In this document: positions 42,139 to 49,836 of the stretch, piece by piece
Position numbering within the stretch: the first letter of the stretch is position 1
How the letters are laid out: every line of letters starts with the position of its first letter
Assembly: GCA_020052645.1 (NCBI GenBank)
Contig: JAGVOQ010000031.1
Span: 35,818-99,817 of the forward strand
Source: Candidatus Omnitrophota bacterium
GTDB lineage: Bacteria > Omnitrophota > Gorgyraeia > Velamenicoccales > Velamenicoccaceae
DNA: 64,000 bases
Reading direction: 5' to 3'
The notes under the pieces: generated by a model
Database searches by the model: none
Told to the model about the DNA's origin: nothing
What the model saw: the letters and a program-made list of their open reading frames with translations, nothing else
Program-made: the position numbers and the translations under genes

Positions 42139-42457
42139 TATGGTGACGGGGAGTGACCGCCATTAATGCTCCGGCGGTCATCCGCCGATATTTCAATGGC
42201 GGATGGATTTTTGAGCTCCTTAATGTGCCCTCAAACGAAATCCCGCTGTTCTTTTGCGGGAGAACCACACGCGTCTCGATAACAATGAACACTTTCAAAA
42301 TGGTGACGGGGAGTGCCTGCCTGCCGGCAGGCAGGGATTTGAACTTACCCCGAATCTCTTCAACATACCTTAGCAAGTACGCACTCGCCAAGCGAAATCC
42401 CGCTGTTCTTTTGCGGGAGAACCACACGCGCCCAGATAACAATGAAGCGATCAATTA
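42139..42457. repeat. Two decayed tandem copies of the tRNA-Met 3' end
   Basis: TGGTGACGGGGAGTG, the reverse complement of the tRNA-Met CCA end, recurs at 42141-42155 and 42301-42315, spaced 160 and 157 bases from each other and from the intact gene at 42458. In the middle copy the perfect palindrome CCTGCCTGCCGGCAGGCAGG interrupts the match, which resumes with GATTTGAAC of the T arm. In the first copy two hairpins (TGACCGCC/GGCGGTCA, ATCCGCC/GGCGGAT) sit at the same point. A shared spacer AATCCCGCTGTTCTTTTGCG lies in both units. Confidence 0.85.
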
Positions 42458-42534
42458 TGGTGACGGGGAGTGGATTTGAACCACCGACCGAGCGGGTATG
42501 AGCCGCTTGCTCTACCAGGCTGAGCTACCCCGCC
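42458..42534 (-). tRNA. tRNA with anticodon CAT (Met, type not resolved)
   Basis: 77 bases including encoded CCA: acceptor GGCGGGG/CCCCGTC, D arm GCTC/GAGC, anticodon stem AGCGG/CCGCT with loop CTCATAC, T arm GGTGG/CCACT. Base 1 pairs with base 72 and the anticodon stem lacks three consecutive G-C pairs of initiators, so elongator Met or the lysidine-modified Ile tRNA is more likely than fMet. Confidence 0.9.
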
Positions 42535-42544
42535 GTCTATTTCC

Positions 42545-42742
42545 TTAAATGCGATTCAAGTCAAACGTACAAAAAACAAAAAATCACAAGTATTCCAAAT
42601 TCTATATCCGAAAAACAAAAGAAACACAAACATTAAAATCACAATTAAGTGTCTGTTTTTTTATTTAGAATTTAATTTGTGATTCAAGTTTTATCATTTG
42701 GATTTCAAAAAACGTATGACGTGCAACCTGTGACGTGTGACT
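42545..42742. repeat. A/T-rich inverted repeat upstream of tRNA-Met
   Basis: Units such as AAAATCACAATTAA and TTTAATTTGTGATT pair, as do CAAATTC/ATTTGG-type units further out; the right end (42713-42742) carries ACGTATGACGTGCAACC and GACGTGTGAC repeats like those inside valS. Confidence 0.6.
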
Positions 42743-43538
42743 ATTTTATCTTGCTCTTCTTATATGCTTCTAAATACGAACCACAATAAATCGTTTTATT
42801 TAAGACCAGATCTGCGGTAATCAAAGAATTCATCAATTCCCCATCTAAGGGATCCAAAATAGCAGCATCTAATCCATAGGACTGAGCCATGACCAAAAAT
42901 GTCCTGTTGATGAGACTACGCTCTTTGGAACCTTGAGAAATATTGCTTAAGCCCACTACTGTTTTTACCGAAGGCGTTGTCATCGATTTAAAGTCTTTGA
43001 CAGACTCTAGTATATCAAAAAGTTGATTCTGAGCAACATTTACCGGTAATAAAATCGGGTCAAGATATAAATCCTGAACCGGAAATTCATATGCATAAGC
43101 AGCTTCAATGATTTGAGCTGCCAGCTCCAGCCTTCTATCTTTATTGCCAGGCACCCCTTTCTTGTCCATAGTCAAAACGATCAAAGAAGCCTGATATTTT
43201 TTTGCTAAAGGAATATAGAGATCAAGTTTTTCTTTATCCGCTGAAGAAGAATTAATAATACACTTAACTCGGGCACCTTTCAAGCCTTCCTCAATCGCCT
43301 GAATTTTTGTACTATCCAAGCATAAAGGCACATCCACTTCCTTCTGGATATTTTCAACCAGCCAACGCAAATCCCCGACAATATCACGCGACATCGGTCC
43401 ACAATTAACATCCAATGCCTGAGCACCGACTTCAACTTGCGCGCCTGCTAAAGCCCGTATGTATGTCGCGTCTTTTTCTAGAAGCGCCTCTGCGACTTTT
43501 TTATACATCCCGTTAATCAATTCACCGATAATAAACAC
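42741..43538 (-). CDS. acsE: Methyltetrahydrofolate:corrinoid/Fe-S protein methyltransferase
   Basis: Moves the methyl group from methyl-THF to the corrinoid Fe-S protein in the Wood-Ljungdahl pathway. 265 residues, a TIM barrel: GAQALDVNCGPMSRD, PLCLDSTKIQAIEEGL, CIINSSSADKEKLD, DLYLDPILLPVNV and VVGLSNISQGSKERSLIN, as in AcsE. It is the last gene of the acs run. The catalytic CODH/ACS subunits (acsA, acsB) are not in the window. Confidence 0.95.
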   Translation of the reverse strand: MFIIGELINGMYKKVAEALLEKDATYIRALAGAQVEVGAQALDVNCGPMSRDIVGDLRWLVENIQKEVDVPLCLDSTKIQAIEEGLKGARVKCIINSSSADKEKLDLYIPLAKKYQASLIVLTMDKKGVPGNKDRRLELAAQIIEAAYAYEFPVQDLYLDPILLPVNVAQNQLFDILESVKDFKSMTTPSVKTVVGLSNISQGSKERSLINRTFLVMAQSYGLDAAILDPLDGELMNSLITADLVLNKTIYCGSYLEAYKKSKIK

Positions 43539-43614: not shown

Positions 43615-44583
43615 TTATCTTTTCATCAAATCTTCAATTGCCTTTTTAACAATCCTGATCGCCTGGGGATGACGCATAGTCAAAATATCCGCGCCAGCCT
43701 GAAGCATGGCCAAAGCTGTTACCACTTCCCACATGATACCGCGCGTATCAGCGTTCCCGCTTCCTGGCCACTCACTTTCAGAGACTTTTGCTTCTTTAGC
43801 ACGCCAGGCTTCTTGCCCCACAAAACAAATAAAAGGCATAGCTAACATTTTATCACCAGCCAAAGCTGCGTTGCGCGCCCGCTCCATAATGGAATACGCG
43901 TATTCCAAACCATAGCCTAAGGCCCCGATCGTCGGGTTGATAACGATCCTGTCTAAGGGCAATCCAATGTCTGAAATAAGAATATTGAGTTGTTTGGCAA
44001 TGTTCACATCAATCGGCGATTCCGCAATGATATTGTGACCATCCGCTATACAAGCCGCGGTCAATGTTTTATAATTCTCCTGGACAACGTCTCCGAAAAG
44101 AAGCCTTTCTCCCTTAGTCGCTTCTGACACGGCAGACAATACATCATTATCTTTATCCGCCTGACCTGAACCTAATACGATCAGCGGCGTCTCGACTTTT
44201 TTAAGAAGCCCCTCAACCAATTCTACAGCCTCTTTAGATGTTTTATTGCCAAAATCAGGATGCGTCCCTTGAAGCTTCAAACAAATCAAATCTGCCCCAG
44301 CCTCACCCATCATTTCAACAGCCCAATCAACAGGCTTATCAGTCAAACCTTTAAGCGCGTTTTTTAGGACAAAAGGGCAATCGTCTTCAACAATATCCGA
44401 TACTTCCGCCGCGATAAGAGGCGCGTGCGGAATCTCGCCTTCTTCAAATAAAAAAGGCATTGCGGATTGGCCGCCGACTTTTAGTATCTTTTTGCGCGAG
44501 CCGCCTGACGCAGCACAAGCACCCATCGTTAATTCATAAATTTTTAAACACGCCCTGTCCAGCACTTTTAATTCTTCAGCCAT
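43615..44583 (-). CDS. acsD: Corrinoid/Fe-S protein small subunit (CODH/ACS delta)
   Basis: With AcsC it forms the B12 protein that carries the methyl group to acetyl-CoA synthase. 322 residues: VGGQSAMPFLFEEGEIPHAP at the start, VDWAVEMMGEAGADLICLKL, PLIVLGSGQADKDNDVL and NPTIGALGYGLEYAYSIMER. The start lies 16 bases inside the cooC end, so the genes are coupled. acsE follows after a 76-base gap. Confidence 0.95.
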   Translation of the reverse strand: MAEELKVLDRACLKIYELTMGACAASGGSRKKILKVGGQSAMPFLFEEGEIPHAPLIAAEVSDIVEDDCPFVLKNALKGLTDKPVDWAVEMMGEAGADLICLKLQGTHPDFGNKTSKEAVELVEGLLKKVETPLIVLGSGQADKDNDVLSAVSEATKGERLLFGDVVQENYKTLTAACIADGHNIIAESPIDVNIAKQLNILISDIGLPLDRIVINPTIGALGYGLEYAYSIMERARNAALAGDKMLAMPFICFVGQEAWRAKEAKVSESEWPGSGNADTRGIMWEVVTALAMLQAGADILTMRHPQAIRIVKKAIEDLMKR

Positions 44584-45320
44584 ATCTCATCTCCTAACGC
44601 CTTAACATCTGCCCATATACCAGATCCTTTTTTTAAACTTTTCAATGACTCACCCTTAGAACTTAATAAAGCGACAGCTTTGTCAAAAGATACGCAAAAA
44701 ACCTTATCAACTTTAAAAGACGATTTTAACGAAGCTACGCATCTTTTAGTCTTTCTATTCAGAATCAAAAACTTTTTCTTAGCAACGATGCCCAATTCCT
44801 GGATCAGATCAAGGATCCTTTGAGCTGACTTCATTCCTACAACCGTTTCATCGGAAACAACAATCAATTTATCGCAAATTCGGGTCGTCTTACGGGAAAA
44901 ATGCTCCAAGCCTGCCTCGTTATCTATAACGATATGATCATAACTTTTAATGAGCTTGGCCATACAATTGCGCAGGACATTATTGATATAGCAATAACAC
45001 CCAGGCCCTTCAGGCCGCCCCATCACCAATAGATCAAAACCACCTTCTTCTGAAATCTCACTTTGGATCTGAAATTCGATATAACTTTCTTTACCCATGC
45101 CCACAGGAACAACCTCAGGGTTTAAGGCCACTTTGTCCACAACATCGGCGATAGTCACCACATTTTTTACGCCTAAGGATTCTGCCAGATTACTGTTGGG
45201 GTCCGCATCCACGGCCAAAACAGACCCAAAACCTCTTTGAGCCAGCATCAAAACGATCAAAGATGACATCGTTGTTTTCCCAGTCCCGCCTTTTCCAGCC
45301 ACTACGATCACGTCACTCAT
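44568..45320 (-). CDS. cooC: CooC-type nickel-insertion ATPase
   Basis: MinD-like ATPase that matures CODH or ACS. About 250 residues: deviant Walker A VVAGKGGTGKTTMSS, the switch LAVDADPNSNLAESLG, the metal-binding CxC in GCYCYINNVLRN, and IDNEAGLEHFSRKT. Start at 45320 preferred; an upstream Met adds four residues. Overlaps acsD by 16 bases. A small double hairpin (45340-45380) separates it from acsV. Confidence 0.94.
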   Translation of the reverse strand: MSDVIVVAGKGGTGKTTMSSLIVLMLAQRGFGSVLAVDADPNSNLAESLGVKNVVTIADVVDKVALNPEVVPVGMGKESYIEFQIQSEISEEGGFDLLVMGRPEGPGCYCYINNVLRNCMAKLIKSYDHIVIDNEAGLEHFSRKTTRICDKLIVVSDETVVGMKSAQRILDLIQELGIVAKKKFLILNRKTKRCVASLKSSFKVDKVFCVSFDKAVALLSSKGESLKSLKKGSGIWADVKALGDEIWLKN

Positions 45321-45334
45321 AATAAAATCCAATA

Positions 45335-45395
45335 AAAAATTTCCGCCGCAGGCGGATCAGCCTTCGGCTGAAACAATGAAAAATTAAAAAATTTA
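45335..45395. repeat. Small hairpins between acsV and cooC
   Basis: CCGCCGCAGGCGG and TCAGCCTTCGGCTGA are adjacent perfect hairpins followed by an A/T tract; the left edge AATTTCCGCC resembles the palindrome at 3717-3749. Confidence 0.6.
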
Positions 45396-45412
45396 AATCT
45401 CTAGTTTTAGCT

Positions 45413-47350
45413 TCAATTGCCATATTTAACGTTAGGAAACCTGGCCATATCCGTATGCGGGAAAAACAACGCGGCCATATACTCATCCATATATTGAGGA
45501 TCAGCAGACAATTCAAAGGTTGTAATATTTTTTGCAACCTCATCACAAATTTTAGAAGCCTGGGTAGACAATAAACTCTGCCTGGCACCGGCTAAAGAAC
45601 TATTTCCGACAAAAATATATTTTTCCCTTACGACATCAGGCAATAATCCTATTTGGACGGAGCTATCAATATTCAAGGAAGTTCCAAAACCACCTGCCAC
45701 AAAAATCTTTTTGATTTGATTAAAATCAATTTCCATGTGCCTGACCAAAATAGCGATGCCGGAATAAATAGCTGCTTTCGCCCGTTTAAGATTATCTAGA
45801 TCCGCGTCTGTTACAACAATATCTTCTTCAACGCTTGAGTCTTCTTTAAAAATAACGACAAATTCATAGCCGCTATCTCCAGATCTTACGCGCTTATTTT
45901 TTATCGTCCTATTAATCTTTCCATTTTTATCTAATACTCCACAACGAAGTAATTCAGACAACAAAGCAATATATCCTGATCCACAAATGCCTCGGGGCTT
46001 ATCTTGGCCTATTGTTCGAATCTCCACCTCGAGTGTATTCTTTTGTAATTTAACTGTTTCAATAGCTCCGCGCGTAGCACGTAAACCACACGTAAGGCCG
46101 CTCCCCTCAAAAGCTGGTCCTGCTGATGCTGCACAGCTCACCATCCAGTCAACATTGCCAAGAGCAATTTCGCCATTAGTGCCGATATCGATCAATAAGT
46201 TGATATCTTTGGATTCATGCATATCGCAAGCCACAACACCCGCTGTAATATCGCCCCCCACATAGCTAGAGACACCTGGTATGCAAAAAAGGAGACCTCT
46301 GGGATTAACTTTTACGCCGACTTCCGAGGCCTTAAACACAGGTACCAGATTCGCGACAGCCACATAAGGTTCTTGACGGATGAATGTCGGATCAATACGC
46401 AGCAACAAATGGATCATCGTCGTATTACCAGCAACAGATAAACACATCACATCATTCAAATCAATATCATACTCTTCAACAAAAGACTCGATCATCTCAT
46501 TAACAACATCAACAACCGCATGGTGCAGCTTCTCCAGCCCATCCTCTTCCTGAGCATAAATAATCCTAGAAATAACATCCGCCCCAAAAGTCGCCTGTCT
46601 GTTATAGGTCGCTTTCGTTCCCAAGGTCACGCGTTTGTTAAGATCAACCAATTGAGCGCTGATCGTCGTTGTGCCTATATCAAAAGCGAAACCAAAATTC
46701 TTATCCGCCCGATCCCCGGGCTCAATAGAAATAATCTCAGGCGCAATCCCTTTATGCGCGACAGCAACTGTCACCTTCCAATCGCTGGAACGTAACAAAG
46801 CACCAAGTTTGCGTATATTGGCCAAGCCCGTCAAATGCGGCACTAAACCAATTTTTTCCTCGAGCGCACGCGCAACTCTTTCACAATCGCTTGTCTTATC
46901 GTCAAAGCTGGGCTTTAAAATCTCTAAATAAAATTTAGACACAAGCGGCGCGTAAGAAAAAATATCATCTCCCAATCGGGGTTTAGCTTCAAAGATATCT
47001 TCCGCTTCAGCGAAAACGCCACGCAGCCTTAATTTCAATTCATCCGAAGAAAGAGCGCTCAAATCGAGACGTGATTCATGCGGAATTTCCACTTCCATAT
47101 CCGATTCAACCAATGTCTGACATGCCAAATGAATGCCGCGCCTTCTTTCTTCAAGAGATATTTTTCCTGAAGGTTCGCAATGGAGGTCGCCTTTCTTAAT
47201 AATGACCTTGCACTTACCACAAACGCCGTCCCCGCCACACGCCGCATTCAAATGAATATGACAGGAAATCGCCGATGCCAAAAGAGTTGTTCCCTTTTCA
47301 ACAACGACTGTCTTATTATCCGGAATAAAAAGAACTTTGCATTTATCCAT
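45413..47350 (-). CDS. acsV: Reductive activator of the corrinoid/Fe-S protein (RACo-like)
   Basis: Re-reduces Co(II) to Co(I) in the corrinoid protein at the cost of ATP. 645 residues: an N-terminal [2Fe-2S] domain with AACGGDGVCGKCKVII and LACQTLV, a linker, then an ASKHA ATPase with FAFDIGTTTISAQLVD, VAGNTTMIHLL, LLIDIGTNGEIALGN and IFVAGGFGTSLNID (DUF4445). Domain order is that of RACo. It is 21 bases after acsC, its presumed substrate. Confidence 0.92.
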   Translation of the reverse strand: MDKCKVLFIPDNKTVVVEKGTTLLASAISCHIHLNAACGGDGVCGKCKVIIKKGDLHCEPSGKISLEERRRGIHLACQTLVESDMEVEIPHESRLDLSALSSDELKLRLRGVFAEAEDIFEAKPRLGDDIFSYAPLVSKFYLEILKPSFDDKTSDCERVARALEEKIGLVPHLTGLANIRKLGALLRSSDWKVTVAVAHKGIAPEIISIEPGDRADKNFGFAFDIGTTTISAQLVDLNKRVTLGTKATYNRQATFGADVISRIIYAQEEDGLEKLHHAVVDVVNEMIESFVEEYDIDLNDVMCLSVAGNTTMIHLLLRIDPTFIRQEPYVAVANLVPVFKASEVGVKVNPRGLLFCIPGVSSYVGGDITAGVVACDMHESKDINLLIDIGTNGEIALGNVDWMVSCAASAGPAFEGSGLTCGLRATRGAIETVKLQKNTLEVEIRTIGQDKPRGICGSGYIALLSELLRCGVLDKNGKINRTIKNKRVRSGDSGYEFVVIFKEDSSVEEDIVVTDADLDNLKRAKAAIYSGIAILVRHMEIDFNQIKKIFVAGGFGTSLNIDSSVQIGLLPDVVREKYIFVGNSSLAGARQSLLSTQASKICDEVAKNITTFELSADPQYMDEYMAALFFPHTDMARFPNVKYGN

Positions 47351-47371
47351 GACAGTTTAAACAAAAAAAAT

Positions 47372-48700
47372 TTAAAGATTCTTAAGATAAGACGGCAAAC
47401 CCGCCGCTTCCCGGGGTCCGACCAGAATTTTCCAACCGGATTTTTCTTCCAAATCCCCGCTCATCATAGACACATAGCCGGGGATGATAAGATTTTTGTG
47501 ACGCACTTTTTCTTCAAGCTTAAATTTAATCAAAGTATCAGCGACTTTTTCCGCATTGAATTTTTCAGCGGCCCATGCTGTCAAAACAGACATCCCTTCT
47601 GTATCAACGCAAATAAGATGACTCGGGATTCGACTTGTTTCAATCTCGCCTAAAACCGTGTAATAAGTAAGCGAAAAATTCGTCGTGATCAAAACAGGGG
47701 ATCGGTCATCCGCGGCACCTATCGTATAAACAGCCGGTTCCACCTGTAAAGGTTTCTGAGGATCGGTAAAAATATTCTGCCGTAACGTCAAAAGAGGCAA
47801 AACATATTCAGGCTTCCGTGTTTTTAAAAGAACAATGCTCGCGTATTTAGCGATAAACATCGAAGCTTCTACCACCGATGCCGCCTCATCCGTCAAGTCT
47901 GCGATCACCATGGTCGGAAATCCAACACTGCGTTCGTTCTTTTTAATAGAGAGCCGACGTAATTGTGTTAACTGCCATAAATAATCGCTCATTTTTTCAG
48001 AATGAACATCTAAAACAATATCCGGGACTCTTGAAACGATTTTTTTTGTAAGGCTCGAAAGTTCAGAGACGCTGGACCCCCTGAATGCCAAAGGCACGCG
48101 AAAGTTTCCGGCAATCGTTGCAAAAGAATCCAACAGGCTATTTTCAGAACAATACACCAAAGGTTTTTGCGAGGCACAGATTTCAAGCGCCGTTTTTAGC
48201 GTTTCAGTTGTCTTAGGCATCAAGACAAGCCCCAATGTGGTTTTTTTCAAAAGAATTTTTAAAGCGTTAATAAACTTAGAATCTTTGCTCTTTGTTTCTT
48301 TTAAAGCCACCAGATTAACTTCAATCTTTTGCCCGACCCGCTCAAATGTGCACTTATTGATTTCCTCTATAGCTTTATTTAATTCAGATTCACTTAAAAC
48401 ATCCTCTAAGATAAATCCGATGGCCGTCGGGTGATGAAATTTTTCTTCATGACGGAACAGAACAGTCTCGTTTCCGATAGACGATTTAGCCTCCCCTGAG
48501 CCGATTTCAACTAAACGAATCGCAGGCTGTGACGCCTGTTCCAAAACCGCACGAACTTCCGGGGTAACAAAAGGACACTTATCCAAAGGAATCGCTTTCT
48601 TGGCCAGCTGCATCGCAAAAGCCAGACATGTCTGAAACCCGCATTTTTTACAATTTGTTTTTGGAAGAAGCTTATAGATATCTAATCCTGAGAGCGCCAT
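47372..48700 (-). CDS. acsC: Corrinoid/Fe-S protein large subunit (CODH/ACS gamma)
   Basis: Carries the [4Fe-4S] cluster and cobamide. 442 residues: the cluster motif TNCKKCGFQTCLAFAMQLAK with KCPFV near residues 17-45, a TIM barrel in the middle (VIADLTDEAA), and the B12-binding C-terminus (LICVDTEGMSVLTAWAAEKF, PGYVSMMSGDLEEKSGW). ATG at 48700 follows GGAG by 5 bases; it lies 19 bases inside larC. Upstream frame extension would be an artefact of that overlap. Confidence 0.95.
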   Translation of the reverse strand: MALSGLDIYKLLPKTNCKKCGFQTCLAFAMQLAKKAIPLDKCPFVTPEVRAVLEQASQPAIRLVEIGSGEAKSSIGNETVLFRHEEKFHHPTAIGFILEDVLSESELNKAIEEINKCTFERVGQKIEVNLVALKETKSKDSKFINALKILLKKTTLGLVLMPKTTETLKTALEICASQKPLVYCSENSLLDSFATIAGNFRVPLAFRGSSVSELSSLTKKIVSRVPDIVLDVHSEKMSDYLWQLTQLRRLSIKKNERSVGFPTMVIADLTDEAASVVEASMFIAKYASIVLLKTRKPEYVLPLLTLRQNIFTDPQKPLQVEPAVYTIGAADDRSPVLITTNFSLTYYTVLGEIETSRIPSHLICVDTEGMSVLTAWAAEKFNAEKVADTLIKFKLEEKVRHKNLIIPGYVSMMSGDLEEKSGWKILVGPREAAGLPSYLKNL

Positions 48701-49836
48701 TTTATCTCCGCTTTTTGTTGAACTTCTTTGATAATTTTCATAAGAGGCGTTTTGGTCAAAACCGCAATTTTTCGGCAATCATCGTACTCCGGAGACATGC
48801 GCCATCCCCCTGAAATCTTACGAACGCATTTGACACGGACTCGCATACCTTTAAAATTTAATATTTTAGAATTTCGCTCTAACTTCAAGCGCTCTACCTT
48901 AGAAAAGCGCACACCCAAGGTCGTCGTTTCTTTAAAGATAATTTCGGATATCTTACCTAAATTCTCCTCGCTTGACAATACGTTAAGCAAAAAACCCGGT
49001 CTTGTTTTTTTCATAGTAATATTTTGAACAAAAACATCCAAGGCCCCCGCTTGAAAAAGCCTGTCGAACACATATTCAAAAACCTGAGGGTTCATATCAT
49101 CGATATTGGCTTCCAAACAATAGATAACATCCGTCTTAAGATTACTCAAAGAAGATTTAAGCTCCACCGCACGAACAATATTTGAACCGTCCGGCACCTC
49201 AAAGGCTCCAGCCCCGCACCCCACGCGGCCTACACGAAAAGTTTCTTTAAACTCCGGCTGAATCTGCCGTCCACAGGCACCCAAAAAAGCCAATCCTGTC
49301 GGAGTAAGATTTTCATGGTTGGCAGACGTAAAATAAACTTTTGAATTTTTGAGAAGCTCCATCGTGGCCGGCGCCACTTTCGAGCCCAAAGGGACATCCC
49401 CATAAAAAATTTGAGCCACGTCCAGCTTATCAAGTAAAATGCTCAATGATACGATATCCACAAGAGAATCAATTTCACCTAATTGATGAAATCGGATATC
49501 TTGATGTTTGTGACCATGAACTTTGGTCTCAGCGTTTTTAAGCACGCCGTAAATTTTTAATATATTCTGCTGAACCGCTTGCGACAATCGAGACGATCGA
49601 ACAAGACGAACAATTTCATTAAAAGAATAGTTCCTCTCTTTCTCCACGCGCACATTCCATTTAAGAGCCCGCGCGTGGCCCCGCTGCACATAATTTTTTG
49701 ATAAGACGTAACCTTTTAAATTTATTTTAAACAGTTCTTTTTTTAGCACCTCTAGAGATACCCCCAGATCCAACATAGCCGCGACCGCCATATCACCGCT
49801 GATCCCGCCGATCAAATCAAAATAAATATAGTTCAT
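48682..49836 (-). CDS. larC: Nickel-pincer cofactor cyclometallase LarC
   Basis: Inserts Ni into the pyridinium-dithiocarboxylate cofactor. 384 residues, both halves in one frame: LarC1 with YIYFDLIGGISGDMAVAAML, ETKVHGHKHQDIRFHQLGE, and LTPTGLAFLGACG; LarC2 with CLEANIDDMNPQVFEYV and SPEYDDCRKIAVLTKTPL. In lactobacilli the halves are joined by a frameshift, not here. Overlaps larB by 4 bases and acsC by 19. LarA and LarE are not in the window. Confidence 0.93.
   Translation of the reverse strand: MNYIYFDLIGGISGDMAVAAMLDLGVSLEVLKKELFKINLKGYVLSKNYVQRGHARALKWNVRVEKERNYSFNEIVRLVRSSRLSQAVQQNILKIYGVLKNAETKVHGHKHQDIRFHQLGEIDSLVDIVSLSILLDKLDVAQIFYGDVPLGSKVAPATMELLKNSKVYFTSANHENLTPTGLAFLGACGRQIQPEFKETFRVGRVGCGAGAFEVPDGSNIVRAVELKSSLSNLKTDVIYCLEANIDDMNPQVFEYVFDRLFQAGALDVFVQNITMKKTRPGFLLNVLSSEENLGKISEIIFKETTTLGVRFSKVERLKLERNSKILNFKGMRVRVKCVRKISGGWRMSPEYDDCRKIAVLTKTPLMKIIKEVQQKAEIKWRSQD

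Follow-up and report, generated by a model that had tools for sequence, protein, structure and literature searches.

What leaves a row of broken tRNA 3' ends behind a single intact tRNA gene, with hairpins lodged inside the broken copies? The question is raised by one locus in a window of 64,000 nucleotides (the whole stretch of DNA analysed; contig JAGVOQ010000031.1) from the genome of a Candidatus Omnitrophota bacterium, the source genome in what follows. In this window the sequence ATGGTGACGGGGAGTG occurs at 42140, 42300 and 42457, with spacings of 160 and 157, against a chance expectation of 0.04 matches at up to two mismatches.

The array at tRNA-Met and its counterparts in relatives

An earlier note, made from the letters of the window, had described three units with a 157-160 base period ending in tRNA 3' sequence, of which only the last is an intact tRNA, and both statements hold (Table 1). 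Downstream of the intact tRNA-Met lie two of its 3' pieces on the minus strand (tRNA positions 51-77; units A and B), broken at two identical points, one in the T-loop between positions 57 and 58 and one in the 3' strand of the T-stem between positions 62 and 63. The second point is the one at which the earlier note saw the match break in both decayed copies, and the two inserts that it reported there were recovered, a double hairpin in unit A and a perfect 20-bp palindrome in unit B, with none of the shuffles giving a match to the latter. The T-arm also picks up again past the double hairpin (GGATTT, 42205-42210), which the note had overlooked. The T-loop insert is hairpin-bearing in each copy, stands directly after GGTTC and is headed by TCCCGC..GCGGGA, with the T-arm GTGGTTC past it; with both inserts taken out, the first decayed copy reads as tRNA 51-77 with 0 mismatches.

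Table 1. Features of the tRNA-Met locus, in window coordinates.
Feature	Position	Strand	Basis
Unit A tRNA 3' end CACTCCCCGTCACCA (tRNA 63-77)	42141..42155	-	15/15 identity
Unit A double hairpin in T-stem, 49 nt, same point as unit B 20-mer	42156..42204	.	sequence + fold
Unit A AAATCC (tRNA 58-63)	42205..42210	-	sequence
Unit A T-loop insert, TCCCGC..GCGGGA..CTCAA, 51 nt	42211..42261	-	sequence
Unit A T-arm start GTGGTTC (tRNA 51-57)	42262..42268	-	sequence
Unit B tRNA 3' end CACTCCCCGTCACCA (tRNA 63-77)	42301..42315	-	15/15 identity
20-bp perfect palindrome CCTGCCTGCCGGCAGGCAGG at tRNA 62/63, unit B	42316..42335	.	sequence; 14 exact genome copies
Unit B T-loop sequence AGTTCAAATC, GTTC repeated beside insert	42336..42345	-	sequence
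Unit B T-loop insert, two hairpins (TCCCGC..GCGGGA, CTTGGCGAGT..ACTTGCTAAG), 73 nt	42346..42418	-	sequence + fold
Unit B T-arm start GTGGTTC (tRNA 51-57)	42419..42425	-	sequence identity
tRNA-Met, intact, anticodon CAT, encoded CCA	42458..42534	-	ARAGORN + Rfam RF00005, 63.4 bits
Pterin-binding enzyme gene, upstream of tRNA-Met	42741..43538	-	PF00809, E 9e-22

Units A and B have in common an 84-bp stretch (86% identical) that comprises the T-arm start, part of the T-loop insert and the spacer. The proposal that the palindrome is being amplified together with the tRNA fragment is not supported, given the different hairpins that the two units hold at the same point; it is the T-loop insert and the spacer that are common to both, and the arrangement differs from one relative to the next. 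The shared stretch does favour the main rival to the reading we develop below, a nuclease-free tandem duplication with mobile hairpins, under which replication slippage would copy a segment ending in the tRNA while one tRNA always stays intact, REP-like hairpins favouring tRNA arms would enter the dead copy, and the GIY-YIG genes described below would be passengers. We consider this duplication less likely than that reading, for reasons that emerge at other loci.

Examining the locus in relatives, as the earlier note had proposed, finds a single, remnant-free tRNA-Met in G001 and G003, where the window-type array is absent, and a different remnant set in each of G002, G004, G005, G006 and G007. 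A related pterin-binding gene stands ahead of tRNA-Met in G001, G002, G003, G005 and G007 (gene order by eye), and inserts resembling the T-loop insert of unit B follow GGTT(C/T) in G002, G005, G006 and G007. Near the locus, the window also holds Wood-Ljungdahl-like genes (CO dehydrogenase/acetyl-CoA synthase components, 43615-49836, as judged from reading of the open reading frames alone).

These comparisons bear on whether the array is functional. Behind the tyrT gene of E. coli, the rtT repeats form tandem units with a period of 178 bp, each ending in a tRNA 3' end, and the pieces studied here might likewise be transcribed behind tRNA-Met as small RNAs. The general layout agrees, the 3' ends are kept at 15/15 positions and there are many hairpins, but the fold reaches only z = -1.8 against shuffles, and neither an Rfam match for the array pieces nor a promoter or terminator was found within the array. 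The array is moreover missing or rearranged in every close relative, its arrangement varies from locus to locus, and the rtT repeats, confined to one locus, are not known to have hairpin inserts at T-arm points. We accordingly rejected a functional RNA array, given the ordinary fold and the missing Rfam match, and rate it as very improbable.

Broken tRNA pieces and hairpin repeats

The tRNA-Met array is one instance of a genome-wide pattern. A partial self-copy (score of at least 13) lies within 500 bp of 14/36 tRNA genes of the source genome, compared with 11/2400 mismatched pairs, and a CAT tRNA at L008 (G000:C38), which is intact and has behind it a piece of its 3' part, with the 20-mer sitting at the corresponding place in the T-arm, raises the count to 15/36. 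Pieces upstream of the gene come from its 5' or D-arm part (7/7) and pieces downstream from its 3' part (7/7), and the break points, in the D-arm, anticodon arm or T-arm, commonly hold hairpins; the remnants of tRNA-His and tRNA-Pro(CGG) contain double hairpins similar to that of unit A. In a larger set of 172 tRNA genes, a mixture of loci from the source genome and loci picked for a GIY-YIG gene, 70 have pieces: 5' pieces occur 28 times upstream and 0 downstream, whereas 3' pieces occur 2 times upstream and 34 downstream, mostly starting in the T-loop or near 62/63. The search was seeded with exact matches of 8-9 bases, which miss decayed halves, and the genome collections consist mostly of metagenome assemblies. 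At tRNA-Gln (L088, +236 to +1010), an open reading frame of about 200 codons lies between two tRNA-Gln 3' ends with identical following sequence and has the look of a larger cassette.

A breakpoint in the tRNA would by itself predict 5' pieces upstream and 3' pieces downstream, in keeping with the duplication reading. Integrases, for their part, commonly target tRNA 3' ends and restore the gene, and the downstream 3' pieces of about 15-20 nt could on that basis be att sites, with the array made of repeated att cores left by site-specific integration. Pieces of the 5' part lying upstream occur just as often as 3' pieces, however, the pieces are broken up by hairpins, and the spacers are too short for a gene of integrase size, the units measuring 157-160 bp and containing no integrase gene; we give this origin very little credence. 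The earlier note had itself raised the alternative that the units are remnants of ordinary tandem tRNA genes with no insertion. They do derive from a tRNA gene, but they carry insertions that recur at other loci.

The 20-mer illustrates this recurrence. The 1.7 Mb source genome holds 14 exact copies and some 21 near ones, or 35 places when up to 3 mismatches are allowed and the window copy is included, a dispersal that fits mobile hairpins as assumed under duplication. Counting the copies and examining their flanks, another check the note had suggested, places several beside tRNA genes; TC ends the left flank in most copies, and no target duplication was seen. The note's inference that the insert entered a tRNA fragment precisely is strengthened by the same T-arm position of the 20-mer in the second, different remnant at L008 and by its presence in T-arms of tRNA remnants in other bacterial groups. 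The 20-mer may favour hairpin loops, but as a general rule this is not evident: with the 20-mer removed, its sites have 9.0 versus 7.6 spanning pairs (n = 21, p = 0.09), and a loop location is clear by eye at four sites in one repeat's hairpin and in three tRNA arms. In the open reading frame over the window copy the 20-mer reads as SLPAGRQA; nothing on the palindrome or on this peptide was found in the open-access literature.

Several repeats accompany the palindrome. L001, L004, L009 and L011 (about position 1500) contain a two-hairpin repeat with the core GGATTTAATTCGC..GCGCTCATTAAA and the 20-mer inside its second hairpin; a copy of this repeat free of the 20-mer adjoins L005, and similar sequence fills the T-loop inserts at tRNA-Glu and in G004. 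The same stretch of about 100 bp (GGGATTTGAAGCCGACC..GCGAGGGCGGCCGGTT, with an inverted T-arm) is found downstream of tRNA-Gly(GCC) and tRNA-Pro(CGG) (L010 and L078), one copy with the 20-mer and the other representing its empty site. A further repeat of about 70 bp (query 320-392) has many copies in G004, G006 and G007.

Short dispersed single or double hairpins that enter genes are known as REP/RAYT sequences (PMC3733652), Rickettsia palindromic elements and mitochondrial double-hairpin elements (PMC2800124); unlike all of these, the hairpins described here sit in tRNA remnants. REP sequences flank RAYT genes and have a GTAG/CGTC tag (PMC3733652), whereas no such tag was seen here and the two RAYT-like (Y1 transposase) genes of the source genome, L116 and L117, are each bordered by a repeat of their own, AGGTCGAACCTCGCCAATCGGGGTCAAGGTTCGACCT flanking L117 twice. 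No palindrome match was found at these two Y1_Tnp loci, and a RAYT as mover of the 20-mer was rejected.

When 84,980 species genomes were searched for the T-arm joined to the 20-mer, the combination turned up nine times, in Levyibacteriota, Doudnabacteria, Kerfeldbacteria, other Patescibacteria, Omnitrophota, an Ignavibacteriales MAG and an unplaced MAG, with an intact tRNA within 400 bp at 8/9; IMG/VR yielded no viral carrier of the motif. At L148, L150, L151 and L155 the intact tRNA lies inside the remnant, between inverted repeats such as CCTGCC..GGCAGG (by eye), and at L148 and L155 the nested tRNA is bare, with 7-13 nt on either side. The outer acceptor strands at L150 and L151 pair with one another and differ from the inner tRNA (by eye), whereas the two outer halves at L149 and L155 fail to pair as one acceptor stem. 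L150, from Omnitrophota, is identical over the stretch shown to L156 in G330, a genome of the window's own class, a match that assigns the window to Omnitrophota. Since the exact motif is rare in the phylum (2/384 genomes), we traced the wider phenomenon through tRNA pieces and GIY-YIG genes.

Nuclease genes and occupied tRNA sites

Small GIY-YIG nuclease genes are concentrated beside tRNAs. Among 16 Omnitrophota- and Patescibacteria-type genomes, 43/85 such genes have an intact tRNA no more than 500 bp away where about 3% is expected (P 9e-42), a rate that cannot be extended to all bacteria because the genomes were picked for containing remnants of this kind or for their relationship to the window. 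All 43 are on the strand of the tRNA and 30 are within 75 bp of it, while none of the 15 GIY-YIG genes of UvrC size is near a tRNA by the same 500-bp measure. Broken pieces of the same tRNA occur at 31 of the 43 loci, and at 7 they lie on both sides of the cassette, 5' and 3'. The tRNA-associated nucleases cluster on a tree built from few columns (14 changes versus 28 when shuffled, 0/500), and their lineage tracks the tRNA isotype only in part, the isotype signal being weak. The nuclease gene (PF01541) lies between the intact tRNA and the broken piece at L154 and at tRNA-His of the source genome, and in G039 a nuclease ORF is 60 bp from tRNA-Met.

Comparison of G006 with G004 pairs occupied with empty sites. 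At tRNA-Asp the empty site of G004 consists of promoter, leader and tRNA, and its last 61 bp before the gene are common to G006, where tRNA 1-13 is followed by two hairpins and then by tRNA 14-24, with the nuclease ORF and, last, an intact tRNA-Asp behind them. The tRNA-Pro flanks match at 82/84 positions; G006 has the native D-arm CTCAGCTTG in its outer piece, whereas its intact gene has GCGCAGTTTG and differs at 10/76 positions from the allele common to G004 and G007. At both sites the comparison shows a nuclease gene and an intact tRNA placed inside the native gene. The outer piece is preceded by promoter-like sequence, so that the nuclease gene and the intact tRNA would be positioned for reading from it. 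An assembly error is made less likely by the fact that G006 consists of a single contig.

The intact tRNA is not always a copy of the gene that was broken. G007 has an intact tRNA-Met of the G003 type flanked by a 5' half (1-57) and a 3' half of the type that is intact in the genus mates G004 and G006; one allele has here been replaced by another, which goes beyond duplication. The native allele has been replaced at tRNA-Met of G007 and at tRNA-Pro of G006, the two loci with a recoded tRNA copy. Recoding is absent at tRNA-Asp and in the window, where the intact and broken alleles are identical, and same-allele copies of this kind would be given equally by plain tandem duplication. Duplication with mobile hairpins does not predict intact tRNAs of another allele inside native remnants, nor the nesting itself, nor 43/43 co-directional nuclease genes.

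Origin of the array

Two known systems supply precedents. The GIY-YIG homing enzyme SegB of phage T6 cuts in tRNA genes at the motif RAWTSGAAC, the complement of the T-loop sequence GTTCSAWTY, and through its action a segment containing tRNA becomes amplified in tandem (PMC13096335). SegB of T4 and T6 resembles the nucleases described here in being encoded by a free-standing gene beside tRNA genes of many isotypes, in a cut motif matching the T-loop and in the tandem segmental amplification; the part of that report dealing with SegB concerns phage genomes with intact tRNA clusters and describes no split native gene with nested replacement, whereas the loci here are in bacterial chromosomes and have hairpin-filled halves, and it is for T6 SegB that cutting has been demonstrated (PMC13096335). 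In CPR bacteria, rRNA genes are known to contain GIY-YIG inserts and short ORF-less inserts at stem-loop tops (PMC11270868). Those insertion sequences share with our loci the kind of host, non-intron inserts with GIY-YIG ORFs, many ORF-less inserts below 200 bp and positions at the top or base of stem-loops, but they lie in rRNA genes and have no rescue gene; their authors deemed the GIY-YIG inserts sparse and outside homing spread, and tRNA is unmentioned in the text (PMC11270868). From SegB and the rRNA-gene inserts together we therefore infer tRNA-targeting GIY-YIG elements that split the native gene and leave an intact tRNA. Among the open-access papers retrieved, none dealt with GIY-YIG genes located beside tRNA genes in such bacteria.

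On balance we incline to read the array in the window as a relic, now without a nuclease gene, of homing directed at tRNA genes and accompanied by a rescue tRNA, in which hairpins gathered in the dead halves. A cassette would land in a tRNA gene and split it at one of its loops; between the halves or next to them it would leave an intact tRNA of the same isoacceptor. The full cassette would include a gene for a small GIY-YIG nuclease, co-directional with the tRNA and located behind the promoter of the native tRNA, and the nuclease would cut tRNA genes and drive the insertion; the intact tRNA, at times another allele, would be the rescue copy. Freed from selection, the displaced halves could be broken again at the D-, anticodon and T-arms by hairpin-forming inserts, which may enter at nuclease cuts, and could undergo tandem duplication. 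In the window, 3' halves and hairpins would be all that remains, and by analogy with the occupied sites a nuclease gene would formerly have stood there too.

Some observations count against this homing origin. Half of the small GIY-YIG genes have no tRNA next to them. The bare nested tRNAs of L148 and L155, the outer halves of L149 and L155 that do not pair, the identical intact and broken alleles at tRNA-Asp and in the window, and the merely partial agreement between nuclease lineage and isotype also weigh against it. Because the window tRNA-Met locus contains no GIY-YIG nuclease gene and only one in the source genome adjoins a tRNA (tRNA-His), most remnants of that genome are without the proposed driver, and the missing nuclease gene is a point in favour of duplication with mobile hairpins. 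The reading in the earlier note, for its part, is partly supported.

The usual view of tRNA genes is that they are stable and inherited vertically, and that integrases target their 3' end. At the loci described here they appear to have been repeatedly split and replaced, with the wreckage staying alongside, in two large uncultured groups. In synthetic Cleave-and-Rescue gene drives, engineered in eukaryotes, a nuclease directed against an essential gene is combined with a recoded rescue copy; the elements here are natural, and their cutting is putative. We suggest, tentatively, that Omnitrophota and Patescibacteria may harbour a natural cleave-and-rescue system, in which a GIY-YIG nuclease destroys an essential tRNA gene and a nested, cleavage-resistant tRNA of the same isoacceptor, read from the native promoter, saves the host, with the replacement of tRNA alleles across both groups as the outcome. 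Provided that the nuclease is what cuts, such elements would be the natural counterpart of the engineered drives; if true, this would explain the movement of whole tRNA alleles between lineages as well as the abundance in these genomes of tiny GIY-YIG genes without a known role.
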